NCBI GenBank assembly: GCA_013378335.1
Contig: CP040556.1
Coordinates: 1,550,001-1,614,000, forward strand
Direction: 5' to 3'
Source of the DNA: Streptococcus sanguinis
Lineage (GTDB): Bacteria; Bacillota; Bacilli; Lactobacillales; Streptococcaceae
Length of the DNA: 64,000 nucleotides
The translations under genes and the position numbers were made by a program. How positions within the stretch are numbered: the first letter of the stretch is position 1; every line of letters starts with the position of its first letter. The notes under the pieces are model-generated. The model made no database searches. It was not told the DNA's origin and saw only the letters and a list, made by a program, of their open reading frames with translations. Below, one piece after another: positions 20,092 to 37,274 of the stretch.

Positions 20092-20349
20092 TTGAAAGAA
20101 AAATTACACTATATCCTGCTTTTAATTACCATTCTATTGGTTGCCAGTATTTCCTTGGCCAATATGCAGAGCGTCAATGTTAGCTTTATCCTATTTAGCT
20201 TCAAACTTCCCTTAATCATATTGATTTTGGTCTCAGTGCTCCTAGGCTCTGTCACGACCTTTCTCATCAGCATGTTAAAAAACTTCTCGCTGAAAAAAGA
20301 GCTTAAGAAAACCAAAGAAGCACTTAAAAATTCCCATACAGAAAACTAG
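20092..20349 (+). CDS. LapA-domain (DUF1049) small membrane protein, TTG start
   Basis: 85 residues with two transmembrane helices (about 5-23 and 38-62) and a charged, probably coiled C-terminus (KKELKKTKEALKN). This is the LapA/DUF1049 plan. The TTG start is chosen because AGGAG lies seven bases upstream and no ATG fits. It follows gatD by 18 bases and ends at a terminator, so it is the third gene of that operon. Its role in streptococci is not known. Confidence 0.82.
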   Translation: MKEKLHYILLLITILLVASISLANMQSVNVSFILFSFKLPLIILILVSVLLGSVTTFLISMLKNFSLKKELKKTKEALKNSHTEN

Positions 20350-20382
20350 GTTGGAAATTATTCCAGCCTAGTTTTTTTGCTT
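20344..20382 (+). terminator. Terminator of murT-gatD-lapA
   Basis: AACTAGGTTGGAA / TTCCAGCCTAGTT stem followed by TTTTTTT; the upstream arm overlaps the stop codon. Confidence 0.9.
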
Positions 20383-20454
20383 TTTGAACAATAGAAATCG
20401 CTGCTTCCCATTATAACCAATAAACCTTCAGACCATCTTTTTTCGCCTTATCCA

Positions 20455-21021: not shown

Positions 21022-21156
21022 CTTGTCCTCCTTGAATGGTATACAGAAGCAGCCAAAAAGTATCTCTTGTAGGCTAAAGGCCGTTTTCCCTTGAACTTGG
21101 CTGCTGGCTTGGTTATAATCTTAGTGACAATTTGCTCCTAGTATATCGTATTTTGA

Positions 21157-21173
21157 CTTCGTTTTCAACGAAG
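21157..21173. promoter_or_regulatory. Palindrome between the tetR and serine hydrolase genes
   Basis: CTTCGTT-ttc-AACGAAG, a perfect 7-bp dyad with a three-base centre, 136 bases before the tetR start codon on the far side. It could be a TetR operator or part of the neighbouring repeat. Confidence 0.35.
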
Positions 21174-21193
21174 ACATAACTGAGGAGATTTTA

Positions 21194-21287
21194 ATACTCA
21201 ATGCAAACTAAAGAACAAGCACAGATAGTACCAGAGTACAGCAAGACAGCGGTGATGTGACTTTAAGTTGTTTTTCGAAGGGAATAC
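21194..21287. repeat. RUP-like intergenic repeat
   Basis: Starts ATACTCAATG and ends TTTTTCGAAGGGAATAC, with an interior GTACCAGAGTACAGCAAG. Layout and ends follow the streptococcal RUP element (about 107 bp, outer ends ATACTC...GAGTAT, inner TTTTCGAAG). It is about 94 bp here, so slightly shortened. RUPs are non-autonomous and thought to be moved by IS630-type transposases. Confidence 0.65.
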
Positions 21288-21411
21288 AATAGTTCCGACA
21301 AACCGGATCAGTTCTTCACAAAATTTTCCTTGCTTGAAGGGACTTTCTTCTGTAGAAGACGCTGGGCGATCGTTCCTAGTCTGCTGCTTCTGTTGCTAAA
21401 GATTGATAGAA
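21288..21411. other. Leader of the first serine hydrolase gene
   Basis: About 125 bases between the RUP-like repeat and the ribosome binding site. No hairpin, conserved box or small gene was recognised. Confidence 0.4.
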
Positions 21412-21426
21412 AAGGAGTATCTCATA

Positions 21427-23208
21427 ATGAAAAAATTGACCCTATGCTTTATACTAACTTTCTTAACTCTCAGCCTTATCTACCCAGCTAGAGCGCTAGC
21501 CGAGGAGGAAACAAAGCTACCATCTGGTATCAGTCGCGACCAAATCAGCCAGAAAATCCAAGACTTTGTCAAGGAGCACGAAAAGACCACTGCTGGTATG
21601 GCAGCAGTGGTCTTTGATACCAATGGAACTATCTACCAAGGCAGCTTCGGCTATATGGACAAGAAAAAGGGGATTCCGGCAGACGATGAAAGCGTCTTTG
21701 AATGGGGCTCTGTGACCAAACTGACCATTTGGGTCTCTGTTATGCAGCTCTGGGAGGAGGGCAAGATTGACCTCGAAGAAGATATCCGCACCTATCTGCC
21801 AGAAAGTTTTCTACGCAATCTTCGCTATGAAAAGCCTATCAGCATGTTAGACCTCATGAACCATCAGGCTGGCTTTGATACGATTCCCAATTACTTACAT
21901 GGCGACAAGAATATAGAAGAAATTTTGACTGTTTACCAGCCGATCCAATCTTTCGAGCCAGGTACGGTCACAGCTAACTCAAATTACGGGACAGGCTTGG
22001 CCTCTTATATCGTAGAGCGGATTTCTGGTCAGAGTTTCTCCGATTACGTTCACGAGCATATTTTTGAACCTCTAAAGATGAACAAGACAGCCATTTTACC
22101 AGATTTATCTGACAATGCTTTTGTACAGGCTAAACGCAAGGAAGCAAAGGGATATGATAGCGAAGGCAAGCTCTTGGGAAGCGCTAATTCTGAACTTGGA
22201 CTCTACTCCTCTGGCAGAGCTACGGGAACGCTAGAGGATTTACAAAAGTTTGCTCAAACACTTCTCAAAAAGGAGAACCTTTTCCATCGTCCAGAGACTT
22301 GGACGACACTTTATACTGCTACTTCGACATATCCAGGCTCAGATATAGTACGCAATGCTCACGGCTTCTGGGTAAGCAAGTATAATGTTTCTGTTTTAGG
22401 TCAAGGAGGACATACGTTCGGATTTTCTAGCAATCTTTTGTTGGACCTTGAGTCAGGAGTTGGCATGATTGTCATGACCAATCAATCCATCGAAGAACGC
22501 TATAACCTCTATATGCTGGAATTAGTATTTGGACAGCGAAAAACAGCTAGCAAAGTTACTAAGGAACGATTCAGTCCTGGATATTATCTTTCCTTCAGAA
22601 TTTTTAATAGTTGTCCCTTGTCTATAGCTAAAATCGTACCTCCATTTATTGATCGACTGAATAGTCCGAATGAAGACTTGTTAAAAGATGAATTTTGGAC
22701 TATTAACGATAGCAATAGGCAAACTACGCTATCCTTGACTTCCTCTGACTTTAAGAAGATTTCTGATTCCGAGCTCTTTACAGACTATGCCGTCACAGGC
22801 TTAGGACTCCTTGCTAGCTTTTTTGCTCTAGGAAATCTCTTATGTAGTATTTTTAGAGACATTAGTCATCTAATTTGGCACAAGCAGAAAAAAACTCTGC
22901 CTAGCTCTTGGAAGGTTTGGAACTACCTGACTTCTCTAGGCATCATGGCTGTTCCACTTCAACTCCTATTGGTTTTCCAAGCAGTTTTAAAAAATGATTT
23001 TAGCGGCGTTAGCTCTTGGCGCTATATGGTCTTTGCTATCTTAGGACTCCTACTGACCCTTGCTGTTCTGCTGTCCATTTTCAAAAAATCATCAGAGAAA
23101 CTCAATCGAGGTCATGTCTGTCTGACAGTTCTGACTAGCCTATCTGCCCTAGCTATGATAGCTAATATTCTATATTGGTCTCTCTATCAGTGGTGGGTTT
23201 TCCAATAG
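21427..23208 (+). CDS. Secreted serine hydrolase (class C beta-lactamase-like fold) with membrane tail, copy 1
   Basis: 593 residues. Signal peptide 1-25; catalytic SxxK Ser95-Val-Thr-Lys98 in EWGSVTKL; a Tyr motif in ANSNYGTG; then three to four membrane helices in the last 170 residues. The fold is shared by D-Ala-D-Ala carboxypeptidases, esterases and class C lactamases. At the HxG position it reads GQGG where its neighbour has GHGG, so activity may differ. The C-terminal helices should tether the enzyme to the membrane facing the wall. The start at 21427 has AAAGGAG; an eight-codon upstream extension lacks a site. Substrate unknown. Confidence 0.88.
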   Translation: MKKLTLCFILTFLTLSLIYPARALAEEETKLPSGISRDQISQKIQDFVKEHEKTTAGMAAVVFDTNGTIYQGSFGYMDKKKGIPADDESVFEWGSVTKLTIWVSVMQLWEEGKIDLEEDIRTYLPESFLRNLRYEKPISMLDLMNHQAGFDTIPNYLHGDKNIEEILTVYQPIQSFEPGTVTANSNYGTGLASYIVERISGQSFSDYVHEHIFEPLKMNKTAILPDLSDNAFVQAKRKEAKGYDSEGKLLGSANSELGLYSSGRATGTLEDLQKFAQTLLKKENLFHRPETWTTLYTATSTYPGSDIVRNAHGFWVSKYNVSVLGQGGHTFGFSSNLLLDLESGVGMIVMTNQSIEERYNLYMLELVFGQRKTASKVTKERFSPGYYLSFRIFNSCPLSIAKIVPPFIDRLNSPNEDLLKDEFWTINDSNRQTTLSLTSSDFKKISDSELFTDYAVTGLGLLASFFALGNLLCSIFRDISHLIWHKQKKTLPSSWKVWNYLTSLGIMAVPLQLLLVFQAVLKNDFSGVSSWRYMVFAILGLLLTLAVLLSIFKKSSEKLNRGHVCLTVLTSLSALAMIANILYWSLYQWWVFQ

Positions 23209-23243
23209 TTTACACTAAATTCTAACTAGATCAACACCAAATT

Positions 23244-23305
23244 TCTGTACTTCAGTATTGCCTACAGCTAGCTTCCCTGTTTACTCTTTGAATTTCATTG
23301 AGTAT
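23244..23305. repeat. Truncated RUP-like repeat
   Basis: CTGTACTTCAG...GCTAGCTTCC...ACTCTTTGAATTTCATTGAGTAT: matches the distal half of the RUP element, in the opposite orientation to the copy at 21194. The other half is missing. Confidence 0.6.
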
Positions 23306-23351
23306 TAGAAAATGACCAATTATTATCTACGTAGAACAGAAAGGAATTTTT

Positions 23352-23426
23352 ATGAAAAAATCAAAACTCCTAATTATTTTAATCATCCTAGTCCTCGGCC
23401 TTTTGATCTATTGCTGCAATAGCTAA
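23352..23426 (+). CDS. 24-residue hydrophobic peptide ORF
   Basis: Reads MKKSKLLIILIILVLGLL then IYCCNS and stop. A basic head, one long hydrophobic helix and a short polar end with two cysteines. A GAAAGGAA site lies five to seven bases before the ATG. It sits between the two serine hydrolase genes. It could be a membrane micro-protein, a lipoprotein-like or pheromone-like precursor, or a chance frame. No Rgg gene is adjacent, which weakens a SHP pheromone reading. Confidence 0.45.
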   Translation: MKKSKLLIILIILVLGLLIYCCNS

Positions 23427-23456
23427 ATCTGAAACATGTCAAAAAGGAGTATGAAT

Positions 23457-25238
23457 ATGATGACAAAACGAATGTTTTTATGGCTTCTGGCTATTCTCAG
23501 CCTGATAATTTTCCAACCTGTCACTGCATTAGCTGATGAATCACAAAAGCTGCCATCAGGCATAGAGCGCAGCCAAATTGGGCAGAAAATCCAAGACTTT
23601 GTCAAGGAGCATGAAAAAACAACAGCCGGTATGACAACGGCAGTCTTTGACAAGAACGGTACGATTTACCATGCCAACTTTGGATATACGGACAAAGAAG
23701 AAGGCATCAAAGTGGATGACAAAAGCGTCTTTGAATGGGGTTCTGTGACCAAGTTGACTGTTTGGATCTCAGTCATGCAACTCTGGGAAGAGGGCAAGAT
23801 AGACCTAGAAACTGACATAAAAACCTATCTGCCAAAGGACTTTCTCAAGACTCTTCGCTACGACAAGCCTATTTCCATGCTGGATCTGATGAATCATCAA
23901 GCTGGCTTTGAAGAGTCTGGTGCGGCCATGAACTACCATAACATCAGCATGGAAGAATTCCTAGCAACTAAGCAGCCTGCCCAAATCTTTGAACCTGGCA
24001 CAAAGACCGCCTATTCAAACTACAGCATGGCCTTGACCGCTTATATCGTGGAGCAGGTTTCCGGTCAGAGCTTCTCAGACTATGTCCATAAGCATATTTT
24101 CCAGCCACTGGACATGAATAAGACGGCTATCCTACCAGGCTTTACATATAATGATTATGTGCGCGAAAAGCGGAAGGAAGACAAAGGCTACAGTGCAGAA
24201 GGACAGTCTCTTGGAGCATCCAACTTCTACATGGACATCTATCCAGCAGGTCAGGCCGCCGGTACTATGGCAGATTTCCAAAAATTTGCTCAAGCCCTTC
24301 TGAGTCAGGACAAGCTATTTAAGCGGAAGGAAACATGGACAACTCTTTACACAGCTAGCTCCACCTATCCTGGCACGGATATCCCGCTCAACATGCATGG
24401 CTTCTGGGTCCAAGAGTACGGCACGACCCTTGTAGGCCATGGAGGGAATACCGATGCCTTCTCCTCCAATATCCTGCTTGACTTGAAAAACGGCATTGGT
24501 TATGCCGTCATGACCAATCAATCCCAAGAGCAAATCTATAATAGCGAGATGCCCCAGCTGATTTTCGGAGACAAGAAAAAGACTGACAAAACAGCCTTTA
24601 AAAATTTTCAGCCTGGCTTTTACCGCAAAGCCCGCTACTTTGAGACTGGGCCGATATCCATTACCAGAGGATTTTTATACACCAGCTACGCCCCTAAAGA
24701 CGCAGACAATCCTCTCCTCACTCAAGGATATGCAGTTCTTAGCCATGCGAATAACCAAGAGACTATCACAAATGCCTACGGAGATAGCTACAAGATTGCG
24801 GACATTGTGATCTACAAAGACTATGCCATGTACGCCTTATTCTTTGTCGGGCTGGTCTATGCTCTTATCAGTCTTGTCATCAGCGGAGTGGCAGACCTGA
24901 TTCGTTTGATCAGAAAGACACCTGCCAAGGCTCCAGTAGATTTAAAAATCTGGAATTATCTGACCTCGCTTACTATTCTCGCCGTTGGATTCAATTCTTA
25001 TCTCATCTTTACTGTTATGACTGTCAGCAAGACTGGTATCATGCAACCTTGGCGCTATATGGTTTTTGCGGGACTGGGTCTGCTATTGGCAGGCTGTGTC
25101 ATCTATCCACTTTTGACCAAGGCCAAGTCCCAGCTCAGCCGCAGTGGCAAGATTCTGACCGTTATGACCAGCCTATCCGCCTTGGCTACCGTAGCCAATA
25201 TCCTCTACTGGTCCCTCTATCAATGGTGGGTGGTCTAA
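23457..25238 (+). CDS. Secreted serine hydrolase (class C beta-lactamase-like fold) with membrane tail, copy 2
   Basis: 593 residues, same length and plan as the gene before it: signal peptide, SxxK in EWGSVTKL, Tyr motif in AYSNYSMA, GHGG motif (LVGHGGNTDAFSS), then about 170 residues with membrane helices. Long identical stretches (KIQDFVKEHEKTTAGM, EWGSVTKLT, SLYQWW) show a tandem duplication followed by divergence. It keeps the canonical GHGG motif, so it is the better candidate for an active enzyme. Start at 23457 is eight bases from AAAGGAG; ATGs at 23436, 23451 and 23460 fit less well or equally. Substrate unknown. Confidence 0.88.
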   Translation: MMTKRMFLWLLAILSLIIFQPVTALADESQKLPSGIERSQIGQKIQDFVKEHEKTTAGMTTAVFDKNGTIYHANFGYTDKEEGIKVDDKSVFEWGSVTKLTVWISVMQLWEEGKIDLETDIKTYLPKDFLKTLRYDKPISMLDLMNHQAGFEESGAAMNYHNISMEEFLATKQPAQIFEPGTKTAYSNYSMALTAYIVEQVSGQSFSDYVHKHIFQPLDMNKTAILPGFTYNDYVREKRKEDKGYSAEGQSLGASNFYMDIYPAGQAAGTMADFQKFAQALLSQDKLFKRKETWTTLYTASSTYPGTDIPLNMHGFWVQEYGTTLVGHGGNTDAFSSNILLDLKNGIGYAVMTNQSQEQIYNSEMPQLIFGDKKKTDKTAFKNFQPGFYRKARYFETGPISITRGFLYTSYAPKDADNPLLTQGYAVLSHANNQETITNAYGDSYKIADIVIYKDYAMYALFFVGLVYALISLVISGVADLIRLIRKTPAKAPVDLKIWNYLTSLTILAVGFNSYLIFTVMTVSKTGIMQPWRYMVFAGLGLLLAGCVIYPLLTKAKSQLSRSGKILTVMTSLSALATVANILYWSLYQWWVV

Positions 25239-25294
25239 GAATGAATGGAAAAAATTTAAAAAATAGCTCTGCCCTCCAAGAAAGGAAATGACAA

Positions 25295-26332
25295 ATGGCT
25301 CTAACAAATTTTCAAGAAAACCTAGCAAGATACGCCAAGATTTTGGTGGCCAATGGCATCAATGTCCAGCCGGGCCAAACCGTCCTCCTAAATATTGATG
25401 TCGAACAGGCTGAATTGGCCCGCTTGATTGTCAAAGAAGCCTATGCCCTGGGCGCCCAGGAAATCATCGTCCAATGGACGGATGAAGCAGTCCAGCACCA
25501 GCAGCTCCTGCACACTTGGATAGAGCGTTTGGAAAGTGTGCCAAACTACAAGCTGGCCGAAATGGACTACTTCTTGCAGCAAAAGGTCAGCTATCTCCAT
25601 ATCCTGTCCTCCAATCCTGACGCTCTCAATCCCAGCAGATCGACTGGCAAAATTTGTTCAGGCAACTGCCAAGAGCTCTCAGCATTTGATGGCCGCCGCC
25701 CAGTCCAAGAAAATCTGCTGGACGCTGCAGCCGGCCAAGCCTGGGCTGAGAAGGTATTTCCCAAGGCCAAGGATGCGACAGAAGCAAAAGACCTGCTTTG
25801 GGATCAGATTTTCAAGGCATGCAAGGTTTACGAGGAAGATCCAACAGCCTCCTGGCTTGCCCACAGGGAGAAATTAACAACCAAAGCCCAACTCCTCAAC
25901 CAAGCCTAGTTTGCTGCCCTGCATTATCGGGCACCAGGAACGGACCTGACCCTCAGCATGCCTCAGAATCACCGCTGGGATTTTGTCGGAGGCGCGACCG
26001 AAAAGGGAGACTACTGCATCGCCAATATGCCGACCGAGGAGATCTATTCGGCACCTGATTTTCGCCGTGTAGACGGCTATGTGACCAGCACCAAGCCCCT
26101 CAGCTACATGGGGCAGATGATTGAAGGCATGAAGCTGACCTTTAAAGACGGACAGATCATCGAGATTCATGCAGACAAGGGCCGGCAGTTGCTCAAAGAA
26201 GTGATTGCGCAAGATGACGGAGCCCAGTATCTGGGGGAAGTTGCTCTCGTCCCAGACCAAAGCCCCATCTCCCAGTCTGGTCTGACCTTCTTCAACACCC
26301 TTTTTGACGAAAATGCCTCCTGCCATCTGGCC
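25295..26332 (+). pseudogene. pepS: Aminopeptidase PepS/AmpS (M29 family), decayed
   Basis: The N-terminus (MALTNFQENLARYAKILV) and later blocks (AAAGQAWAEKVFPKAKD, CIANMPTEEIYSAPDFRR, TSTKPLSYMGQMIEG) are PepS. The reading frame is lost near 25635, where homology continues as IPADRLAKFVQATAKSSQH in the next frame, and returns near 25725. An in-frame TAG at 25907-25909 follows NQA, where CAG would be expected. Homology ends after ENASCHLA at 26332, so roughly the last 65-70 codons, including C-terminal metal-ligand sequence, are gone. Several independent lesions make a true pseudogene much likelier than a read error. Confidence 0.88.
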
Positions 26333-26448
26333 ACCTGTTGTACCAAGAGAAAAGCTGAGATTTTTGGGCTCTATAATATCTGTAGTTGGTAAATCCGACA
26401 CAGAGGTTATAGGGCTTTTTGAATGTATACAAAAAGTCCCATACGACC

Positions 26449-26454
26449 TATAAT
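26449..26454 (+). promoter_or_regulatory. Transposase -10 box
   Basis: TATAAT 33 bases before the transposase start, with a weak -35 (TATACA) 17 bases upstream, inside the left end of the IS. Confidence 0.45.
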
Positions 26455-26487
26455 GAAAAGCGCAAACAACTCATTAGAAAGACTCAT

Positions 26488-27744
26488 ATGGAACACATCA
26501 AGAATACCACAGAATTGCTGGGAATGAAAGACTTAAATATCAAAATTACCTTCATCTTGCAGCACCAGACCCATCTTGAAATTCGGGCTAGACTGGATTA
26601 TGCAGCTCCTTCCTGCCCTCACTGCGGCGGTAAGATGATTAAGTACGGTTTTCAGAGGTCCTCTAAAATCCCACTCTTGGATGCACAAGGGTTTCCAACT
26701 CTGCTCCGTCTCAAGAAGCGGCGATTTCAGTGTAAATCTTGTCATCGGGTGACCGTAGCTGAGACACCCATCGTAGACAAGAACCACCAGATTTCACACC
26801 TGGTCTGGAAGAAGCTCACCCAGCTCTTGACCGAAAATCGAGCCAATACCGATATTGCCAGAACCCTCCACATCTCCGTCTCAACCGTCCAGAGAAAGCT
26901 GGCTCAGTTCACTTTCAAAGAGGATTACACCAAACTTCCCGAGGTCATCTCCTGGGATGAATTTTCTAGGAACAAAGGCAAATTAGCCTTCATTGCACAG
27001 GATTTCGAGACCAGGAAAATCATCGCCCTCCTCGAAAACAATCGCCAGAATACCATCAAAAATTATTTCTACCGCTACCCGAGAAAGGTCAGAGAACAGG
27101 TCAAAGTCGTGACCGTGGACATGTCTGGCACTTACATTCCAATCATCAAGCAACTATTTCCTAAGGCCAGAATTGTGTTGGATAGGTTTCACATCGTCCA
27201 ACATCTTGGCAAAGCCATGATGACCACTCGAATCGCTATCATGAAGACCTTTGACAAGAAATCTCTGCCTTATCGTGCGCTGAAAAACCACTGGCGACTA
27301 TTTCAGAGAGAAAGCAGAAAACTGTCTCGTCATCGCTTTTATTCCAAGACCTTTAGGCAGACCCTAAAGCCTAAGGAAATCGTGGACAAGACACTTCAAT
27401 TCTCAGAAGAACTCCGTTATTACTACGATCTCTACCAGCTCTTGCTCTTCCATTTCCAAGAGAAACGTACTACAGAATTTTTTGAAATCATCGAAGACAA
27501 CATGAATCTTGTCAATTCGACCTTCAAAAGAGTTTTTGAGAGCTTCCTAAAACTCAAACCTTACATCACAAATGCACTCCAGTTCGACTATTCCAACGCC
27601 AAGCTCGAGGCTACCAACAAGCTCATCAAGGATATCAAACGAGCGGCCTTCGGCTTTCGCAATTTTAAGAACTTTAGAACTAAAATCCTCCTCGCTTTGA
27701 ACATACAAAAAGAGAGAACCAATTTGGTCCTCTCTCGGATTTAA
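26488..27744 (+). CDS. ISL3-family transposase
   Basis: 418 residues from MEHIKNTTELLGMKD. N-terminal zinc-finger-like pairs CPHCGGK and CKSCHR (about 40-45 and 77-82), a helix-turn-helix (NTDIARTLHISVSTVQRKL), then the DDE domain with SWDEFS, VTVDMSGTY and the late LEATNKLIKDIKRAAFGFRN glutamate region. Very like the IS1167 transposase. A start 23 codons upstream is possible but would fall in the promoter. Frame intact, so probably active. Confidence 0.94.
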   Translation: MEHIKNTTELLGMKDLNIKITFILQHQTHLEIRARLDYAAPSCPHCGGKMIKYGFQRSSKIPLLDAQGFPTLLRLKKRRFQCKSCHRVTVAETPIVDKNHQISHLVWKKLTQLLTENRANTDIARTLHISVSTVQRKLAQFTFKEDYTKLPEVISWDEFSRNKGKLAFIAQDFETRKIIALLENNRQNTIKNYFYRYPRKVREQVKVVTVDMSGTYIPIIKQLFPKARIVLDRFHIVQHLGKAMMTTRIAIMKTFDKKSLPYRALKNHWRLFQRESRKLSRHRFYSKTFRQTLKPKEIVDKTLQFSEELRYYYDLYQLLLFHFQEKRTTEFFEIIEDNMNLVNSTFKRVFESFLKLKPYITNALQFDYSNAKLEATNKLIKDIKRAAFGFRNFKNFRTKILLALNIQKERTNLVLSRI

Positions 27745-27821
27745 ACTTTCTACCAACTACAGTTGACAAAGAGCCGATTTTTGTCTCAGCTTTTTCTATA
27801 CTATATATTAGGCGCGAAAAT

Positions 27822-29471
27822 TTAATTAGTAAATTCTTTTAACCAAGCAGCTGCGATTTTCTGATTACTATTCTCGCTAAGTACATTTACATGATGCAAA
27901 TTTATACTTTTATTAAATTGTATAAACTCTTGAATAGTTGCTAAAATAGCGGCATGAATGAGCAAAATATAATTGCCCAGAGCGGAATCTACTGCAAAAT
28001 TAGTAGGTATACCTTGATTCAAAATATAAAAATAGTTATCATCGCTCTCATATTTCGTAATAGAACTGCTTTCCAATAACTTTTTATATTCTTCACTAAG
28101 ATAATTTAAATTAAATTCATCATCACTAGATGTCGCTGATACAATATAACTACCGTCTTTTACAGCTCGGAAATCCAATATATCTAAACTTTTTGAACCT
28201 GTTGCACAAAATATTAAATCAATATTTGAAAAATCTTTTTCAAGCAATACATCACAACCATCTCTAATAGCTTGAATAGCACGAATGCTATTTTTCTCAA
28301 TCACTATCGGTTTTATACCAAGCTCACGTAATTTTGTACAGATTCCATAACCTATCCTACCATATCCAATACAAGCAACTTTCATATATTGAATTAATAA
28401 GTTTTTTTGATGAAGTATATAGTCTGCTCCAAATACAATATCCGCCCCTACTAGATAATCTTCATTCTTTTTCAATGGATTTCTTGCTACTGAAAAAACT
28501 GGATATTTAACATCATTAATTACTTTGTTATATTTTTGAATACCATTCTCTGTGTCCTCAACTATACATACAATAGGAAGATTATTTTTTTGTGAAATAT
28601 TCGCGAAATAACCACCAATATCTATTAAAATTGTTTTACCACTAATATTGCAAAATTTTTCATCAAAATCATCATTCCGAGAGGCAACCTTTAACTTAAT
28701 ATCAGATTCTTCTAGTTCTTTCCATACTTTTTGATTAATTGAATTTGGCTTTGCACATATTAGCAACCTTGAACCAAATATTTTTTTCAAGGTTTTTATA
28801 AAAGGAATACTGCTTGGAATAATATGTTGTATTGCTACACACGAAATATCTGCAAATATATTTTTTGACACAATCTTTGATAAAAATCGTTCTTGAGAGC
28901 TTAATTCTAAATTTTCAATTTTTTTAGCAATATTTTTATACCCTGGCATATTTTTGAAGCTCTCCCATTCAACCCACTCATATAAATTAGATTCATTTTT
29001 ATCTATTGTTACTTCCATTTCATTTTCACTAAAAAATAGATATTGTAAATCATAATGATAATGAGCTTTCTCTCTTTTATGCTTATTTTCAGGGATTTTA
29101 TGAATAGAGATATTAAATGGTATCATATCATCTAATGGTTCTGCCCTCTTATAATCTAACACTTCAGATGTTAGCCCTGTTTCCTCAAACAACTCCCTTC
29201 TTGCAGTCAACAATGGATTTAAATCTTCTTCCTCAATATGTCCTCCAGGTTGAAGATATTTTTTCAACACTTTATGATGTACCATCAGTATTTTATGATT
29301 TTTCCTAGAAACTACAAATGCCGATGCTGTAAAATGTCCCACGAAATTTTTTCTGTTAATTAGTTCTTTTTCTTTTTTTTCATTAAGCTGAACTAAAATA
29401 CTATTCAAGCTATTTCGTTCTTGAAAATTATTTAATTGATATCCTTCAACGATAGTTTGATAAATTCCCAT
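27822..29471 (-). CDS. Nudix hydrolase / S-adenosylhomocysteine hydrolase-like fusion
   Basis: 549 residues. N-terminal Nudix domain (about 43-170) with box GGHIEEEDLNPLL...RRELFEETGL at 76-100, one residue longer than the classic spacing. The rest (about 205-549) resembles SAH hydrolase: ILIDIGGYFANI (281-292), VEDTENG (304-310), PLKKNED (332-338), and NAD-binding GYGRIGYG (369-376). Compared from memory with SAHH, the substrate Lys and Asp are kept (K334, D338), but the two catalytic His positions and both Asn appear replaced. It may act on a different substrate. It is 22 bases behind the NRPS-like gene, in the AT-rich island. The fusion is unusual; function unknown. Confidence 0.8.
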   Translation of the reverse strand: MGIYQTIVEGYQLNNFQERNSLNSILVQLNEKKEKELINRKNFVGHFTASAFVVSRKNHKILMVHHKVLKKYLQPGGHIEEEDLNPLLTARRELFEETGLTSEVLDYKRAEPLDDMIPFNISIHKIPENKHKREKAHYHYDLQYLFFSENEMEVTIDKNESNLYEWVEWESFKNMPGYKNIAKKIENLELSSQERFLSKIVSKNIFADISCVAIQHIIPSSIPFIKTLKKIFGSRLLICAKPNSINQKVWKELEESDIKLKVASRNDDFDEKFCNISGKTILIDIGGYFANISQKNNLPIVCIVEDTENGIQKYNKVINDVKYPVFSVARNPLKKNEDYLVGADIVFGADYILHQKNLLIQYMKVACIGYGRIGYGICTKLRELGIKPIVIEKNSIRAIQAIRDGCDVLLEKDFSNIDLIFCATGSKSLDILDFRAVKDGSYIVSATSSDDEFNLNYLSEEYKKLLESSSITKYESDDNYFYILNQGIPTNFAVDSALGNYILLIHAAILATIQEFIQFNKSINLHHVNVLSENSNQKIAAAWLKEFTN

Positions 29472-29493
29472 CTACATCCACATCCTTCCTTTT

Positions 29494-32370
29494 TTACAAA
29501 ATTTCATTAGAAACTGTTGCAACTATTTTTTCATTATTTCTTTCTATTTCATAGCTATTATTTTTAAATATGCTTGAACAAATTACCGAATAAGTTTTTC
29601 CTTTATGGGAAAAAATATTTATGAAATTTTTTTCAAACTTATTAGCCAATATTTGTTTTACCAAGTCATCAATTTTCAAAGCCTCACCAATATAATTTAT
29701 TGAAAGAGATAAATTGTTAATCCGATTTTTTATCAGTTGTCCTACCGAATCTCCCCTTCGTAAAGCCATCTCACTAAAATCTATACCTTGACCATATAGA
29801 TTTAATTGGTTTTGGAAATTTAACTTAAAATCTTGATAGTTTTCATTCAATTTAACTTCAAAAGGGATTTTTTTATGTATATCTCCTATCAAACTTTCAG
29901 CATCAAAATTTATGAATTGCCTGAAATCATACGATAAACCGCCGGATATACTTAAAATATTATAATCTAATAATATGCACCTACAAAGAGCATAGACTGT
30001 ATATAAATATACATCATCTTTTGAATCATCCATATTTACTGGCAATTCAAAAATTTGTAATCCCTGTTTTAAAACTGAGAAATTAAGATTATCTTTCACT
30101 GCTGGGAGTTTATTTAATACATCTGATGGTAATTCTGTATATAGGAAACTCTTTTTATATTGATCAAACTTATACAGTGAACTTTCTTTAACCGAGCTAA
30201 TATTATTCTTATGTTCATAAGCTTGATAAATAATATTTTCAAGCATGTTCAGAGATGAGGAATCAATTGAATGATAAGGAAAATAAAAACGTACTATTTT
30301 ATCATAAGTTGATACAGCAATTATTGGAATGGGGATGCATGTCTTTGAATCTAATATTTCTTGCAATATAAGATTGTTTGGAAATCTATTCAGTATAAAG
30401 ATATTTGGAATGTATCTTTCTTTTTCTATCAATCTGAATTCTATTCCACTATCAACTTTTTTTATTATCATTCTAAAAATATCAATTTTATCACTCAAAA
30501 TTTTTAATAAAGATTTTATCCTCAATAATTCTTCACAATCAATACTTTTTAAGCTTATGTCAAAATAAACCGTTCGGAATTGTTTGTTATTGTACAAACG
30601 ATATTGGGTTGGAGTAGCATCTACTATTCCATCAGCATACTTTAGAAGATACGAATCAGATAAATTATATTCAATATTCACTAAGTCTCTATTATCAGAA
30701 TTGATATTATTAGTATGCTTATTGTCAGGATTTCCTTTCATTTTATCTTTCACATATTCTATCGTGGTTTCTATACTCTTCAACTTATATATGTCTGATT
30801 CTCTCACCTTAATATTAAACGTATCCTCAATTTCTAAATAGAATTTTACCGACTCTAGGGAATCTAAATCCAAAACCTCTACACATCCAAATTGAGATAA
30901 AATTTCTAGAATTGACTTTCTAATCACATCTTCGTCTAAAAATCTCTCATTGTAATAATATTTATCTAACATTTTAGTTACATCTAGTTTTCTATTTTGA
31001 GTTAAATAGAATTTGTCAACCTTAACTACAATGGGGTTCAGATAGCTAGGTAAATTCTTTAAAATTCTATCTTTTTCTTCATTTTGTGCCACATAAAAAA
31101 TATATATTTTTTTCTTATAAAATACAACTCTGGAAGAATCTACAGAAGTTACTTTATCAACAAGAGACTTTATTTCATCCAGTTCTACTCTTATTCCATT
31201 CACCTGTACTTGATTATCTATACGAGAACTAAAAACTAAATTTTCACCTTGAAAATACACATAATCCCCTGTATGATAATATCTTTCGCCGTTTATTTTT
31301 GTGAATTTCTTTGAATTCAAATCAGGCTGTAATAAATAACCGTCCGTTACTCCCTGACCACCAATCCATAATTCACCTTGTTGATTTTTTAAATCACTTC
31401 TATTTGGTACTACTCTTATCGTTGCACCTGGGATAGGTTTCCCAATTGGAACAACATTATATTGCTTATTTTTTAATTCATAATAAGTAGTGTATATTGT
31501 TGTTTCTGATGGCCCATAAAAATTAAATACCCTACATCCCTTAGAAATAGTAGGTCTTAATTTATTAGCTAATGTACCAGGAAACACTTCTCCGGCTAAA
31601 CAGAGGACTTGAAGATTATCAAAAATAGTTGATTCATTAGTATCAATAATTGTCTCTGCAAACGACGGGGACAATGATAAATGAGAAATTTTCTCATCAT
31701 TTAAAATTTTCGAGATATTAATAATACTGTTAATATCAGCTTCAAAACAAACCAATGTCCCACCAGTAAATACTGGAGCTAAAATTTCCGTTAACGAGAC
31801 ATCAAAAGTATAGGGAGTTGTGAATAAAAATTTTGATTCTGATGTAAAATCTACAATATTATAAAATTCATTCAATAGCCAACTAATATTGTCTTCGGTT
31901 AAAAACACTTTTTTAGGTGTACCAGTTGTACCAGAGGTACATATGATATATGATATCTTATTTTCTAAATTAATAGTAAAATTATCATCATCAATATACT
32001 CATCATCATTTTCTGGCAATATAAGAAAATCTACATCTTTCAAATAATAATCTTGATTTTTATCAGATATTACAGTATCAAAATCTACATCCATAATACG
32101 ATCCAATGATTTATTGATAGATAAACTGTTTGTTATTGGAAGAGGAATTTTACCTGCTTTGATTATTCCTAAAACAATTGGCAAAACATATATAACTTCT
32201 TCTATATAAAATGGTACAATCTCTTTATCAGTTAAATTCAACAAACTCTTTGCTAAATAATTTGATAAAAGATTAATATCTTTAAAAGTGAAACGACGAC
32301 TCTTAGAAATTAGTACATCCTTTAACGGATTTTTTTTAAAATTATCATTAAACATTTTTAAAATAGACAT
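29494..32370 (-). CDS. Single-module NRPS-like protein: adenylation, carrier, condensation/epimerisation-like
   Basis: 958 residues. Adenylation domain (about 1-470): A3 TSGTTGTPK 145-153, A4 FDVS 189-192 (the Asp that grips the alpha-amine), A5 NFYGPSETT 283-291, A7 YHTGD 365-369, A8 RIDNQVQVNG 383-392, A10 NRKLD with Lys461. Carrier domain (about 480-545) with phosphopantetheine Ser504 in LDSLES. The last 390 residues look like a condensation/epimerisation fold (ATPTQYRLY near 586, FPYHSID near 697-703, SINYIGEAL late), with a degenerate HHxxxDG motif. No thioesterase is present. Probably loads an amino acid; product unknown. AAAGGAG precedes the start. Confidence 0.85.
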   Translation of the reverse strand: MSILKMFNDNFKKNPLKDVLISKSRRFTFKDINLLSNYLAKSLLNLTDKEIVPFYIEEVIYVLPIVLGIIKAGKIPLPITNSLSINKSLDRIMDVDFDTVISDKNQDYYLKDVDFLILPENDDEYIDDDNFTINLENKISYIICTSGTTGTPKKVFLTEDNISWLLNEFYNIVDFTSESKFLFTTPYTFDVSLTEILAPVFTGGTLVCFEADINSIINISKILNDEKISHLSLSPSFAETIIDTNESTIFDNLQVLCLAGEVFPGTLANKLRPTISKGCRVFNFYGPSETTIYTTYYELKNKQYNVVPIGKPIPGATIRVVPNRSDLKNQQGELWIGGQGVTDGYLLQPDLNSKKFTKINGERYYHTGDYVYFQGENLVFSSRIDNQVQVNGIRVELDEIKSLVDKVTSVDSSRVVFYKKKIYIFYVAQNEEKDRILKNLPSYLNPIVVKVDKFYLTQNRKLDVTKMLDKYYYNERFLDEDVIRKSILEILSQFGCVEVLDLDSLESVKFYLEIEDTFNIKVRESDIYKLKSIETTIEYVKDKMKGNPDNKHTNNINSDNRDLVNIEYNLSDSYLLKYADGIVDATPTQYRLYNNKQFRTVYFDISLKSIDCEELLRIKSLLKILSDKIDIFRMIIKKVDSGIEFRLIEKERYIPNIFILNRFPNNLILQEILDSKTCIPIPIIAVSTYDKIVRFYFPYHSIDSSSLNMLENIIYQAYEHKNNISSVKESSLYKFDQYKKSFLYTELPSDVLNKLPAVKDNLNFSVLKQGLQIFELPVNMDDSKDDVYLYTVYALCRCILLDYNILSISGGLSYDFRQFINFDAESLIGDIHKKIPFEVKLNENYQDFKLNFQNQLNLYGQGIDFSEMALRRGDSVGQLIKNRINNLSLSINYIGEALKIDDLVKQILANKFEKNFINIFSHKGKTYSVICSSIFKNNSYEIERNNEKIVATVSNEIL

Positions 32371-32392
32371 ACAGCACTCCTTTAAAAATTAG

Positions 32393-32455
32393 CTAAAAAT
32401 ACAACTCACAAACATTGCTGCTGATTGTAGGAAGTTCATTTATTTTCACAGACAT
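32393..32455 (-). CDS. Possible 20-residue peptide ORF upstream of the NRPS-like gene
   Basis: Reads MSVKINELPTISSNVCELYF and stop, ending 22 bases before the NRPS-like start. No convincing ribosome binding site. It may be a leader peptide, a precursor, or chance. Confidence 0.2.
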   Translation of the reverse strand: MSVKINELPTISSNVCELYF

Positions 32456-32548
32456 TAATTTTAATCTACAATTCTGTATTATCTCATTAAATATTTTCCT
32501 ATCAAGTCAGCGAAATCATTAAAATAAGAAATTGTCTTTTCTCTTAGC

Positions 32549-32568
32549 TGAAACCTTTTAGTTTCAGA
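32549..32568. promoter_or_regulatory. Stem-loop between the MFS and NRPS-like genes
   Basis: CTGAAAC-taaaag-GTTTCAG, a 7-bp perfect stem (minus-strand reading) with no T-tract after it. Possibly an operator or a processing/attenuation hairpin in the 225-base gap. Confidence 0.4.
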
Positions 32569-32595
32569 CTAATGTACTTGTTCTAAAACCAACCG

Positions 32596-33777
32596 TTATC
32601 TTTCTATTCGCTGAAACAAGGTGAAAAATAAGAGCGAAATAATCACAATACCTAAACCAATCAAAAGAAATGAAGAAAAATTAATACTAGGAAATAAAGT
32701 CATGAAGAAGGTAGCAATAGGCATAAGAAGAATAGATAATGTATAAATTGTAGAAAAAACTCGTCCCAAATATTGTTGAGCGACTTTAGTCTGAACCTGA
32801 CTAAAAAAATGAATATTAAATATTGTCATAAAAAGCTCACAAATAAAATTACCGAAGTATGCTATCCAATTAGGTAGAGGTAAAAAAAATTGGTTACCTA
32901 TCACTGCTACCCCAAAACCCGTTAACAATAGGGAGAAAAGCAAACGATCTGTACTAGCAGTCACTCTAGTAGCTATTATAGCACCAACAATGGAGCCTAT
33001 AGCTCCCAAGCTAAGAATTGTAGCATATGCACCATTTTGTCCAAATAGCTTATCAGTAAAAGGTAATAGATAATTAAGAGCCGCAAAGAAAAAATTAACA
33101 GTCGAGGCTAATAGTAATAGAAAAAAAATCTCTTTCTGCTTACGAATATAAACAAAACCATCCACTATATCATGTAAGACTGTCCTCATAGTTAGTCTTT
33201 CTTTCTGAACAGTCGATGGTTCATGATTCGGCAGAAAATAAACTACAATAAATGACAGAAAAAAACTGAGAGCATCTAACATTAGTGTTACTCTTAAATT
33301 AGTAAAACGCATTACAATAAAGGATAGCACAGGCGCTGAAACACTGATAACCTGCAGTATTAACTCCAGATAGGAATTATAGGCTACGATGTCTTTCTTA
33401 TCCACTATTTCTGTGATGTAGGATTTATTCGCAGGTCTTGAAAAAGCAAAAGCTACTGCTTGAATGACATTTACAACAATCAATGCCCCTACCATCCATT
33501 GATCATTTGAAATAAAGGAAGTTCCCAAACAAAAAACTGTACAAATAAGATCTGTTGCCATCAGGACTTTCCTACGCGAAAAGCGATCAACAATAGCCCC
33601 TCCAATAGGGTTAAATACAATAGAAGTTACTAAGTCTGATATCTGATAAATCCCTAAAATAGTCTGCCCAATAGTGCTAAGCGAAGCTATCCAAATACTG
33701 TTACCATAATCATAAAGCATATTACCGATTTTATTGATTGCTGCGCGCACAATAAGTCCAATAGCAAATTTATTCAT
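32596..33777 (-). CDS. MFS transporter (MefA/DHA3-like efflux type)
   Basis: 393 residues with about twelve hydrophobic helices. The loop between helices 2 and 3 reads GGAIVDRFSRRKVLMATD, the standard MFS signature. Helices are short and continuous, resembling the 12-helix macrolide-efflux (Mef-like) group. In the island it lies between the Rgg regulator and the NRPS-like gene, all on one strand, so export of the cluster product or self-protection is the likely task. An AAAGGGA site precedes the ATG. AT-rich like the island. Confidence 0.88.
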   Translation of the reverse strand: MNKFAIGLIVRAAINKIGNMLYDYGNSIWIASLSTIGQTILGIYQISDLVTSIVFNPIGGAIVDRFSRRKVLMATDLICTVFCLGTSFISNDQWMVGALIVVNVIQAVAFAFSRPANKSYITEIVDKKDIVAYNSYLELILQVISVSAPVLSFIVMRFTNLRVTLMLDALSFFLSFIVVYFLPNHEPSTVQKERLTMRTVLHDIVDGFVYIRKQKEIFFLLLLASTVNFFFAALNYLLPFTDKLFGQNGAYATILSLGAIGSIVGAIIATRVTASTDRLLFSLLLTGFGVAVIGNQFFLPLPNWIAYFGNFICELFMTIFNIHFFSQVQTKVAQQYLGRVFSTIYTLSILLMPIATFFMTLFPSINFSSFLLIGLGIVIISLLFFTLFQRIER

Positions 33778-33856
33778 GTTAAATCCCTTTTATTTAAAAG
33801 ATTTAATTATTTTAGCATAATTCCTCTAAAAATGTTTTTTTTCCCGTATAAGGGAT

Positions 33857-34723
33857 TCAAGTTCTTCTTACAAATTTATTAAAATGCTCCTTATAGTATT
33901 CTACTTGTTGAGCTGCTCCAACAACTTCAAAAACCTGAATAGCATCACACATTTTGTTTATACCTACTTGTTTATCCCCTTCTATATAAAGTTTAAATCC
34001 CTTTATGTATACGAAAATAGTCTTTTCATAAATAGCCGTTGGATCTTCCAAAAATATTTTAACTTGATCCTCAAAATAAGTAGCCTTATTCAAATCACCG
34101 TGTTCCAAACAATGTAACCAAAAATTGAGTAGTAAAAGCCTCACTAAATTTCTTTGTCTACCAATTTGCATGAAAAGACATTTATTTTTCAACACTTCTT
34201 TTGCCATACGATAGACATAGTCAACTTCATAAAAAGTGTAAAGATTACCAAAAAGAATCAGCTCATACATGGTCCAGTCCTCTACCTGAAAAAGATAATC
34301 AGCCACCTTGTCCAAATCTGCCTGCTCCATGCTAAAACGGCTATCCCGCTGGCAGATCAACCCCTGCAGCAGGATCCAATTCAGCTCATAATAAAGCGGA
34401 CTGCTGTCCTCTTTGGCCTTTTCCAACTGCTTTGCCTGCAGTTTTTGAAATCCCTCAATATCCTTTGAATAATAGAGGGGAATAATCTGGCTCATCATGG
34501 CTATATGATCGTTCAACTGGAAATTCCGAGCCTTATCCATAAAATTTTCAAAGGTCACGTGAATATTATCCAGCAGGTCCAAAAATTTTGATAAGGTCAT
34601 ATCCGACTCGCCCAGCTCAAAACGCGATAGCTGAGAGGTCGAACAAACCTCTCCTGCCGCTTCCTTTAGGGAGTAGTGGCCATTCAGCCGAAAATCCCGA
34701 AAAACAGGTCCTAAATTGTCCAT
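33857..34723 (-). CDS. Rgg/GadR/MutR family regulator, mosaic composition
   Basis: 288 residues. N-terminal XRE-type helix-turn-helix (about 5-62, SLKEAAGEVCSTSQLSRFE), then an all-helical TPR-like domain typical of Rgg proteins, which bind short hydrophobic peptides. The 5' part (34250-34723) has the base composition of the core genome; the 3' part (33857 to about 34230) is as AT-rich as the island. The gene therefore seems to be a hybrid whose DNA-binding half is native and whose peptide-sensing half arrived with the cluster. It starts five bases after the DUF6483 stop. Likely target: the MFS-NRPS-Nudix genes downstream. No obvious SHP pheromone gene was found next to it. Confidence 0.87.
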   Translation of the reverse strand: MDNLGPVFRDFRLNGHYSLKEAAGEVCSTSQLSRFELGESDMTLSKFLDLLDNIHVTFENFMDKARNFQLNDHIAMMSQIIPLYYSKDIEGFQKLQAKQLEKAKEDSSPLYYELNWILLQGLICQRDSRFSMEQADLDKVADYLFQVEDWTMYELILFGNLYTFYEVDYVYRMAKEVLKNKCLFMQIGRQRNLVRLLLLNFWLHCLEHGDLNKATYFEDQVKIFLEDPTAIYEKTIFVYIKGFKLYIEGDKQVGINKMCDAIQVFEVVGAAQQVEYYKEHFNKFVRRT

Positions 34724-34727
34724 ATGC

Positions 34728-35083
34728 TCACCACTTAAACTCTTTCAGTTGTTTTTCTAGCTCCTGCAAATAAGCCTCATCAAAGCCGTGACGTTCCTTG
34801 ACCGGTTCATCCAAGCGGGCCAGATAGAGCAGGAAATGATCGACCAACATCTCATATTGAGGAAAGGGCAGCCGTTTCATCTGGTCCTGGACAAAGTCAA
34901 TGGCCTCCGCAAAGCGCTCGCTTTCCAGCAATTCCTGAAAATAGCGGACGCCATCGACCTGCCGGCCCTCCTCGTCCTCAAACTGGCCCAGGTCCAAGTC
35001 CTGAACCTGCAGATGCAGGGCCGAACCAATCATATTGGCCGCTCCTTTGATCTGCCGCATAACCAATCGTTTTCTGATGACAT
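34728..35083 (-). pseudogene. DUF6483 family protein with 5' frameshift
   Basis: From the ATG at 35083, which has a proper AAGGAG site, the reading is MSSENDWL and then leaves frame. From 35060 the next frame reads MRQIKGAANMIGSALHLQ to the stop at 34728 (about 110 residues, helical, Leu/Glu-rich). One extra A near 35061 would join them into a single protein of DUF6483 type, whose usual start contains an END-W-x-MRQI pattern. Either a real single-base deletion, a read error, or translation from an internal start without a good site. Family function unknown. Confidence 0.65.
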
Positions 35084-35227
35084 GGGCAACTCCTTCTACT
35101 AAGCTGGTGAACAGACAGCTAACTTTTCAAATATTTCAGCTCAAACTTGGCTGTTTTGCCTGAATGTTCGGGAATGATTTTCTGATAAGAAGATTCAAGC
35201 CTGAAACTTCTCGGCAGAAAAAATAAA

Positions 35228-35352
35228 GTTCGGCTTTCACTCTTGAAAGAGCTCGTCCGAAAATCGGACAAGGCAATTCAGCTCTGAAAGAGATTTTCCG
35301 AAAATCGGACGGGTTGTTTTGGCTTTGAAAGGAATGTTTCCGTATGTAAGAC
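35228..35352. repeat. Degenerate 41-42 bp tandem repeat, about three units
   Basis: Each unit carries a CTTTGAAAGAG-like segment and then TTCCGAAAATCGGAC: ends at 35269, 35310 and 35352 (last unit diverged to TTTCCGTATGTAAGAC). Two units contain the dyad GTCCGA/TCGGAC. Lies between the DUF6483 gene and the ABC-F gene end; no coding frame. Confidence 0.6.
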
Positions 35353-35379
35353 GAAATCTTTTGAGCTGAGGGCAGTATC

Positions 35380-37274
35380 CTACACCTTCTCCGCCAGTTC
35401 TTCCCATTCTAGCATGGCTTTTTCTTGGACAGCGGTCAGCTGGTCGATTTGCTGCTGGCTCTCCATGAGTGCGCCAGCGTCATTGGTTGCCTGCATGGCT
35501 TCCTGAAGCTGACTAATCTGGCTATCCAAGTCCTCAATTTGCGCTTCCAGTTGTTCTAGGCGACGGGCAAGTCGGCGCTGTTCTTTCTGGTTTCCTTTTG
35601 AAGCTGATAGTCATTGGCAGGTGCTGGCTTGTCAGGACTGGCCTGCTCCGTCTCCTCTCGCAAGGCTTCCTGCTCTGCCTTTTTCTCTAGATAGTAGTCA
35701 TAATCACCCAGATACAGGGTGGAGCCTGTCTCAGATAGCTCGATGATCTGGGTGGCCACGCGATTGATAAAGTAACGGTCATGGCTGACAAAGAGCAGAG
35801 TGCCGTCAAAGTCAATCAGGGCATTTTCCAGGACTTCCTTGCTGTCAATATCCAGGTGGTTGGTCGGCTCGTCTAGGATGAGGAAGTTGTTGTTTTCCAT
35901 AGACAGCTTGGCTAGAAGCAGCCGCGCCCGCTCTCCTCCCGACAGCATGCCAACAGACTTCTTGACATCGTCTCCCGAGAAGAGGAAAGCGCCTAAGCGA
36001 TTGCGAATTTCGACCTCTGGCGTCATCTTGAAGTCATTCCATAGCTCGTCAAGTACTGTATTGCTGGCAGTCAGTTTGCTCTGGGTCTGGTCATAGTAGC
36101 CCACTTCCACGTTAGCTCCCAGCTGCTCCTTGCCTCTGATGAAGGGCACTTGCCCGATTAGTGATTTAATCAAGGTCGTCTTTCCAATCCCATTTGGTCC
36201 GACAATAGCTACCGCATTAAACTTGCGAATATCTAGGTTAATCGGCTCCGACAGGACTTCCTGTCCGAAGCCAATAGCTGCATCTTCCAAGGTCAGCACA
36301 ACATTGCCTGAAACCTTATCGGCTTTGAAGGTCATATTAGCCGATCGACTGCCGGTCTCTGGTCTGTCCAAACGCGCCATCTTTTCCAGCTGCTTTCGGC
36401 GAGACTGAGCCCGCTTGGTAGTGGAGGCCCGAACTAGATTACGATTGACAAAGTCCTCCAGCGCAGCAATTTCTTTCTGCTGCTTTTCATAGTTCTTGGC
36501 TTCAGTGGCCAGCTTCTGCTCCTTTTGGACCACAAAGCTTGTGTAATTGCCCACATAGCGGTCCAAGGAATGCTTGGTCAAATCCAGCGTGATGGTCGCA
36601 ACCTTGTCTAGGAAATAGCGGTCGTGGCTGACGATAATCAGGGCACCGCTGTAGTTAATCAAGTAAGTCTCCAGCCAGGCAATGGTCTCGATATCCAAAT
36701 GGTTGGTCGGCTCATCCAGGACCAGCAATTCTGGCTTTTCCAAAAGCATCCTAGCCAAAGCAAGACGAGTATTCTGCCCGCCTGAAAGCTCAGAAATCTT
36801 CATCTGCCACATGGACTGGTCAAACTTGAAACCATTCAAAATCGCTCGAATATCGGCCTCGTAGGTAAAACCACCCTTCTGGCGAAAGTTCTCTGACAGC
36901 TGATCGTACTGAGTCATGATAGCCGTCAGGTCTTCCCCAGACAATTCTCCCATTTGCAGCTCCATCTGTCGCAAGCGCTTCTCTTGCTGACGCAGACTAT
37001 CAAAGACCTGCAGCATCTCGTCGTAGATAGTATTCTCCGACTCAAAGCGGCTGTCCTGTGCCAGATAGGACAGGGAAAGATCTCGTTTTTTATTGATCTG
37101 ACCAGAAGTAGACTCTTCCTCGCCCACCAAAATCTTGAGCAGGGTTGATTTCCCAGCTCCATTTTTACCGACGAGAGCAATCCGGTCTCCCTCATTCACT
37201 TGCAGGTTAATATTGTCAAAAAGAAGCTCCCCTGCAAAAGAGCGCTCGATCTTGCTTGCTTGTAAAATAATCAT
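35380..37274 (-). pseudogene. ABC-F family ATPase (Uup/YdiF-like) with C-terminal frameshift
   Basis: Two ABC domains without membrane segments: Walker A GKNGAGKST and GPNGIGKTT, signatures LSGGQ and LSGGE, Walker B LLVLDEPTNHLD and FLILDEPTNHLD. ABC-F proteins act on the ribosome. The frame ends at 35556 after DYQLQKETRKNSADLPVA. With one extra A near 35591-35593 it would go on as QKEQRRLARRLEQLE and a coiled coil to 35380, the normal C-terminal domain of Uup-like members (about 635 residues in all). So the ribosome-binding core is complete but the coiled coil is lost. Start at 37274 lacks a Shine-Dalgarno site and looks leaderless. Confidence 0.8.

Follow-up and report, generated by a model that had tools for sequence, protein, structure and literature searches.

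What could two enzyme genes inside a conspicuously AT-rich block be making in the chromosome of Streptococcus sanguinis, and how much of that block came from elsewhere? We addressed both questions in a stretch of 64,000 nucleotides (contig CP040556.1, positions 1,550,001 to 1,614,000), referred to below as the window. The reading that we tentatively favour is that an acquired unit of two enzymes would make and export a small aminoacyl compound, with a nucleotide as the source of its second building block. The genes concerned are the following:

27822..29471, minus strand: fusion protein of 549 amino acids (aa), with a Nudix domain (residues 48-179) and an NAD-binding domain of S-adenosylhomocysteine hydrolase (SAHH) fold (residues 191-549); DIGGYF family
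29494..32370, minus strand: one-module synthetase of 958 aa, with an adenylation domain (about residues 1-470), a carrier (Ser504) and a condensation/epimerization (C/E) fold (about residues 557-958)
32596..33777, minus strand: DHA3-type exporter of the major facilitator superfamily (MFS), 393 aa, from a Pfam MFS_1 match over the curated cut-off and locus comparison
33857..34723, minus strand: Rgg regulator of 288 aa, mosaic, from PF21259 (Rgg_C, 146.6 bits, cut-off 27) and locus comparison

Firstly, we considered composition. The four open reading frames (ORFs; 288, 393, 958 and 549 aa, in the order rgg, MFS, a gene resembling nonribosomal peptide synthetases (NRPSs), Nudix-SAHH) are intact and share the minus strand in a block (27784-34280, 6.5 kb) with 29.2% G+C, compared with 44.6% in the rest of the window (1-20380 plus 34281-64000). 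Sliding windows of 6.5 kb elsewhere in the 64 kb reached a minimum of 41.5% (mean 44.7, sd 1.4), and every one of the 45 sliding 1-kb windows with less than 30% G+C lay inside 27701-33200. This bears out the sequence-only reading from which we started, which had described four same-strand genes in a GC-poor block; its two 60-base samples (15 G/C at 31981, 34 at 35881) were reproduced exactly. The interval that it had proposed, 26333..34250, needed correction: its start fits the point near 26333 where pepS homology ends, but the leftmost 1.4 kb is a plus-strand ISL3 element. Likewise, the AT-rich character attributed to all four genes extends to about three and a half of them, the right edge falling inside rgg, at a drop in the G+C content of third codon positions (GC3). 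A promoter scan was uninformative (45 matches, against 38 ± 6.8 in shuffled sequence), and with regard to phage origin, none of 50,697 phage records matched the 549-aa protein at E 1e-15.

The same site was then compared with that of related streptococci. In seven relatives (G242, G621, G204, G093, G042, G065 and G623), an rgg gene and an MFS gene lie near the same ABC-F gene, their products being 60–67% (Rgg) and 61–71% (MFS) identical to those of the window, and both enzymes are absent from these rgg-MFS stretches. An Rgg regulator and a DHA3-type exporter had been assigned to the island, and both were identified; however, since the pair is resident in these relatives, only part of the gene set belongs to the island itself. 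Compared with this resident locus, the window has the pair in the same place and order, but only the window has the enzymes, and there rgg is mosaic and the MFS gene is AT-rich. In the comparison with G242, nine of the ten other matched flanking proteins were at least 96.5% identical to those of the window, and the stretch matching 20100-20380 (96%) runs directly into the MFS gene; the window therefore holds about 12.2 kb extra between 20380 and 32596. The MFS proteins of the two genomes are 70% identical, with a gene GC of 0.339 in the window against 0.436 in G242.

The two halves of the regulator behaved differently. Over residues 1-145 the window Rgg shares 82.8% identity with G242, but over residues 146-288 only 50.7%, whereas the control pair G242 and G093 showed 73.8% and 83.1% for the same two parts. 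The fall in identity coincides with the drop in GC3, from 0.47–0.63 in codons 1-150 to 0.17–0.33 in codons 151-270. We read the window rgg as a mosaic of a resident-like DNA-binding half and a foreign-like C-terminal half, joined near 34280. These half-by-half identities and the GC3 drop indicate that the incoming DNA probably brought rgg and MFS alleles of its own, with one junction inside the regulator gene, and such a mosaic Rgg would couple the local promoter to a foreign signal. For the peptide quorum control that had been suggested, no convincing candidate for a pheromone gene (a neighbouring short hydrophobic peptide) was recognised by eye among 39 listed ORFs of at least 20 aa overlapping 32300-35600. 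Between rgg and the ABC-F gene of G621 (L154, 11546-13328) lie two similar AT-rich ORFs (GC 0.31–0.33) with a shared N-terminus, and the right side of the rgg locus may be an insertion point too.

Because of its composition, the mosaic rgg and the loci of the relatives, we regard the block as foreign and horizontally acquired. That it might be ordinary core sequence with the same composition in all relatives had been named as what would refute the island; its composition is foreign and the seven relatives lack the enzymes at this site.

The 958-aa protein has the build of a one-module NRPS-type activating enzyme, as had been proposed, with adenylation, carrier and condensation domains in A-T-C order and the core residues D190 (amino-acid Asp), K461 (A10 Lys) and S504 (carrier Ser) intact. 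The A domain matched PF00501 with 156.1 bits (cut-off 29.9) and the carrier just exceeded the cut-off of PF00550 (PP-binding; 21.0 against 20.8); the condensation family PF00668 was not among the matches at E 0.01. The predicted model has the A-T-C arrangement (mean pLDDT, the per-residue confidence, 86.5; predicted template-modelling score 0.57) and aligned with LgrA (6mg0) over 851 residues, with a root-mean-square deviation of 25.1 that comes from domain shifts; the best-scoring solved relative of the A domain is the second A domain of LgrA. With putative pocket positions set by sequence motifs, the specificity code of the window protein reads DVTSCAFIYK; the other three Nudix-SAHH-linked synthetases and L112 share DVTSCALIYK. 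The host genome contains one ACPS-family phosphopantetheinyl transferase candidate.

In the condensation domain, HHxxxDG is replaced by PYHSIDS, with Tyr699 at the His position. Among the 48 readable rows of a 50-row alignment (query included, two rows unreadable), 12 have Tyr and 36 His. When the nine intact synthetases with known neighbours were sorted by partner, PYHSID was found in all four beside a Nudix-SAHH gene and SHxxxD in all five beside other enzymes, and the condensation site and the partner enzyme may change together. The partners of the His-type synthetases are a histidine phosphatase with Gfo/Idh (L111) or with a dehydrogenase-like protein (L112), a kinase and a glycosyltransferase (L109), an ATP-grasp amino-acid ligase (L110), and two radical S-adenosylmethionine (SAM) proteins with a pyrophosphatase (L167). 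From these differing neighbours, it seems that one core A-T-C module is combined with changing partner enzymes. The last of these loci lies on a conjugative Enterococcus plasmid (NZ_CP040462.1, 4829-12196), where two radical SAM genes (one B12-binding), the pyrophosphatase, the A-T-C synthetase and an MFS gene stand together.

The partner in the window is the 549-aa fusion. Its Nudix domain matched PF00293 with 44.6 bits (cut-off 21.1) and has an intact Nudix box (RE..EE..G), in which R92, E93, E96, T98 and G99 are nearly invariant and E97 is invariant over 22 rows. The SAHH part matched Pfam AdoHcyase_NAD with 43.1 bits (cut-off 27), and the predicted model shows the SAHH fold with its NAD-binding Rossmann domain, the NAD motif being intact. 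The equivalents of SAHH H55, E156, K186 and D190 are kept as H216, D306 (Asp for Glu), K334 and D338. D131 and H301 are replaced by I285 and S448, with Ile (Val in L108) and Ser across 11 aligned and partly dependent family rows, and the adenine pocket and H353 region are lost. The NCBIfam adenosylhomocysteinase equivalogs scored far below cut-off (83.9 of 275 and 66.3 of 497.6 bits). An anti-phage role was considered and rejected, as PADLOC gave no match at E 0.001 for either window enzyme, and only weak matches (E1-E2) for a Lactiplantibacillus plantarum relative.

We also monitored how often the two enzymes recur together, in 295 Streptococcaceae genomes that include the window's own. The 549-aa query matched 31 of them, and both the Nudix and the SAHH part were matched in four, namely G000, G274, G250 (Streptococcus sciuri, L005) and G135 (Streptococcus cuniculi, L008), the remaining matches being essentially to one domain. 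A query with the synthetase C domain matched 6 of the 295 Streptococcaceae genomes; within the genus it matched 5 of 284, and in a sample across the order 3 of 395. In all four Nudix-SAHH genomes, the synthetase is directly upstream with an MFS gene in the same neighbourhood, although the S. cuniculi copy is broken, with the NRPS in at least four pieces and the Nudix-SAHH gene cut. The same pair was found in Butyrivibrio hungatei (L004). The conserved co-occurrence of the 958- and 549-residue proteins that had been proposed as a check therefore holds, the genes being adjacent and in tight order in five genomes (the window and four others). In a wider survey covering the best 80 of 473 confirmed loci, a synthetase-family ORF was directly upstream in three, which fits L004, L005 and L008. 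No synthetase was present in the stretches examined at L006 (Saccharibacteria), L007, L015, L016 and L023, several of which have the Nudix part only; L015 has lost the NRPS and SAHH parts and has a HIT gene nearby.

A tree that leaves out unlabelled near-copies of the Streptococcus proteins (P0002, P0004) grouped the Butyrivibrio protein with three Streptococcus proteins as a set of four with support of 95/97 and similar identity (66–67%). Because of this grouping, we take the family to be common to distant Firmicutes. Within the set, a single Streptococcus clade was not rejected (approximately unbiased test, p 0.174). Separate arrivals in Streptococcus had been considered from a first tree, but its count of three changes is invalid, as its rows included the near-copies. 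The window MFS is closer to the resident MFS (the 61–71% above) than to those of other NRPS loci (27–37% in six loci, no match in L110); thus, an NRPS with a DHA3-type pump recurs, but the pump lineages differ. The Rgg proteins beside other loci (S. sciuri, S. cuniculi and G251) are 27–29% identical to the window Rgg, a level common among many other Rgg genes.

The neighbours of the DIGGYF family elsewhere bear on its substrate. In the Streptomyces loci opened, the SAHH-like and Nudix parts are mostly two adjacent genes, and a second SAHH/Nudix-family ORF was directly downstream in 48 of the best 80 of the 473 loci. A recurrent surrounding was found in 11 Streptomyces loci (L042, L052, L053, L055, L057, L064, L065, L070, L072, L073 and L078), comprising a thymidylate-synthase homologue, a carbamoyltransferase, a glycosyltransferase-like protein, an APH-type kinase, a histidine phosphatase, an epimerase, the SAHH-like protein and Nudix, with a cytidylyltransferase gene in 10 of the 11; these families were profiled on one representative each. 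Two L. plantarum plasmids that were examined carry an MFS-HD-SAHH operon, and for 47 of the 53 listed plasmid records the annotation under the match names an HD-type or phosphohydrolase gene. In S. sciuri, the SAHH and MFS genes are separated by a gene for an HD_3/YfbR-like 5'-deoxynucleotidase, which is split into two ORFs. Since many of these neighbours (Nudix, HD nucleotidase, PyrE-like, cytidylyltransferase, with MFS) are nucleotide enzymes, they point to a nucleotide-derived substrate. The Staphylococcus epidermidis plasmid pHD40-5_1 (L171, CP052964.1, 5348-14500) has what looks like a nucleoside-type cluster, with genes for a Pfam Lysine_decarbox protein, which we take to be of LOG type, ParB-N, HpaB, Nudix, aminopeptidase P, a pyridoxal-phosphate enzyme, PyrE, HD, the SAHH-like protein and MFS.

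In the favoured reading, where the substrate class, the sequence of the steps, the acyl transfer, the export and the regulation are our inferences, the A domain would activate one amino acid and load it onto Ser504. With bound NAD, the SAHH-fold domain would oxidise a nucleotide or nucleoside at its sugar and might rearrange that sugar further, and the fused Nudix domain would cleave off a nucleoside-diphosphate or pyrophosphate group. The condensation domain, modified to Tyr at the His position, would let the aminoacyl thioester leave to the nucleotide-derived partner, the neighbouring DHA3 pump would export the product, and the mosaic Rgg would couple the promoter of the site to a foreign sensing domain. 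The acyl partner is proposed to be nucleotide-derived because of the nucleotide-enzyme neighbours of the SAHH-like family and its kept ribose-binding residues. On the same grounds, we depart from the earlier suggestion that the Nudix/SAHH-like enzyme modifies the activated amino acid, a nucleotide-type partner being more likely.

Several points weigh against this proposal. The unit has no base-supplying, aminotransferase, phosphatase or glycosyl-transfer gene, so those substrates must come from the cell. With D131 and H301 replaced, the predicted SAHH-like reaction is undefined, and the 11 rows that show these replacements include a nearly identical pair (L107 and L168). The contrast between Tyr and His may mark a single clade, since neighbours are known for a minority of the 12 Tyr rows, and the neighbour tally stands without a formal control for chance nucleotide-enzyme neighbours. 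Full-length fusions without an NRPS nearby occur in Saccharibacteria (L006, 55% identical), Moranbacteria, Bacteroidetes and Planctomycetota; the two enzymes are therefore not obligate partners.

A rather unlikely alternative, though the best surviving one, is a natural-product cluster in which the activated amino acid, or its dipeptide or amide, is itself the product, and the Nudix-SAHH protein performs redox or phosphohydrolase tailoring on it or on an unrelated sugar phosphate. The A-T-C relatives adjoin an ATP-grasp amino-acid ligase (L110), Gfo/Idh, 2-hydroxyacid dehydrogenases and GNAT (L111), or the radical SAM pair with the pyrophosphatase (L167), so that the module does not demand a nucleotide partner; however, the SAHH-like family adjoins nucleotide enzymes in bacteria and plasmids with no NRPS seen beside it, and its ribose-binding Lys, Asp and acidic residue are kept. 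Decidedly less probable is that the Nudix-SAHH protein sanitises nucleotides or repairs a cofactor and travels with the cluster without building the product, which would be a simple amino-acid derivative from the NRPS and pump. This would suit the NRPS-free fusion of Saccharibacteria L006 and those beside glyS-like genes in Moranbacteria L011 and L013 (gene identity from sequence, not profiled), but not the tight order with the synthetase conserved in five genomes, nor the matching Tyr/His difference. That the unit is a decayed or silent relic, its foreign genes kept by chance and making no product, appears improbable: the S. cuniculi copy is broken, L015 is without NRPS and SAHH parts and an insertion sequence sits in the terminator-like hairpin of the window unit, yet all four window genes are open, with carrier serine, A-domain lysine, Nudix box and NAD motif intact. 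Finally, that the protein is a true SAH hydrolase serving methylation chemistry in the cluster was rejected as scarcely credible, since its fold and the AdoHcyase_NAD score are offset by the loss of D131, H301, the H353 region and the adenine pocket and by the missed NCBIfam cut-offs, and no methyltransferase profile in the Pfam and NCBIfam scans matched the genes of the unit.

To the left of the block lie two further features:

25295..26333, plus strand: broken pepS-like M29 aminopeptidase gene, from ORFs and Pfam PF02073
26367..27775, plus strand: ISL3-family insertion sequence, with a transposase gene (26419-27744), terminal inverted repeats and a target duplication

The pepS gene is split over two frames (25295-25909 and 25958-26392), and its match to the profile breaks off at about position 345 of 406, the M29 homology stopping near 26333, at the left edge of the AT-rich unit. 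The ISL3 element has terminal inverted repeats of 25 nt (26367-26391 and 27751-27775, 80% complementary), a perfect 8-bp target duplication, GATTTTTG, at 26359-26366 and 27776-27783, and a transposase gene with a GC of 0.437. Because it sits in a terminator-like hairpin that follows the Nudix-SAHH gene and includes a T run, it probably arrived later than the cluster. Its left end coincides exactly with a minus-strand match to Rfam Srn266 ('Streptococcus RNA 266') at 26367-26475 (77.6 bits, cut-off 63), and this small RNA family may be an insertion-sequence end. Further left, 20381-26333 is a second inserted stretch of normal G+C with three genes and the broken pepS; it is absent here in G242, and pieces with 64–69% similarity occur elsewhere in relatives.

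If the favoured reading is right, the unit would give Streptococcus a new type of metabolite by a compact two-enzyme route that lends itself to testing, and a widespread SAHH-fold family with an altered active site would be defined, so that many genes named 'S-adenosyl-L-homocysteine hydrolase' are probably misnamed. The mosaic rgg clearly illustrates how recombination within a regulator gene can join an incoming cluster to a resident regulator site. A broader and more doubtful extension is that Lactobacillales and other Firmicutes make a new class of metabolites, aminoacyl-nucleosides or aminoacyl-ketosugars, by means of a one-module synthetase with a Tyr-type condensation domain and a third functional class of SAHH-fold enzyme (DIGGYF, fused or linked to Nudix or HD phosphohydrolases) that would also serve several undescribed nucleoside clusters, including those of L. 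plantarum and S. epidermidis plasmids and of Streptomyces. A search of the open-access literature, judged mostly by titles and with most subscription papers outside its reach, found no description of this gene set.

Among known systems, the puromycin and cystocin pathway shows a similar logic, with an NAD-dependent dehydrogenase acting on a nucleotide, Nudix, a phosphatase and amino-acid coupling, the last by Pur6 in clusters without a detected adenylation domain (PMC11641026); there is no evidence of homology, and the window unit has an A-T-C synthetase and no aminotransferase, the Pur proteins not having been compared directly. Pur6-, Pur10- and Pur4-type families were absent from the Pfam and NCBIfam matches of the four genes, no direct Pur search having been made. 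Closer in fold is AgmF, which PMC8599513 describes as an SAHH-like NAD-dependent dehydratase of angustmycin A, with essential residues H56, D129, K184, D188 and H299. It is an SAHH-family enzyme acting on a nucleoside in a natural-product route with phosphatase and phosphoribosyltransferase-type partners, but the equivalents of its D129 and H299 are replaced in the 549-aa protein, a correspondence made via SAHH numbering with AgmF itself unaligned. AhcY/SAHH shares with the 549-aa protein the fold, the NAD site and the ribose-binding Lys and Asp, whereas in the DIGGYF family D131 has become Ile and H301 Ser, the H353/adenine pocket is gone and there is a fused or linked Nudix. The synthetase resembles DltA in its A domain and its short carrier, and it has the same order of A domain, carrier and C fold as the A-T-C/E modules of LgrA and GrsA/TycA, from which it differs by PYHSIDS in place of HHxxxDG and by an IGDxH signature of its own.

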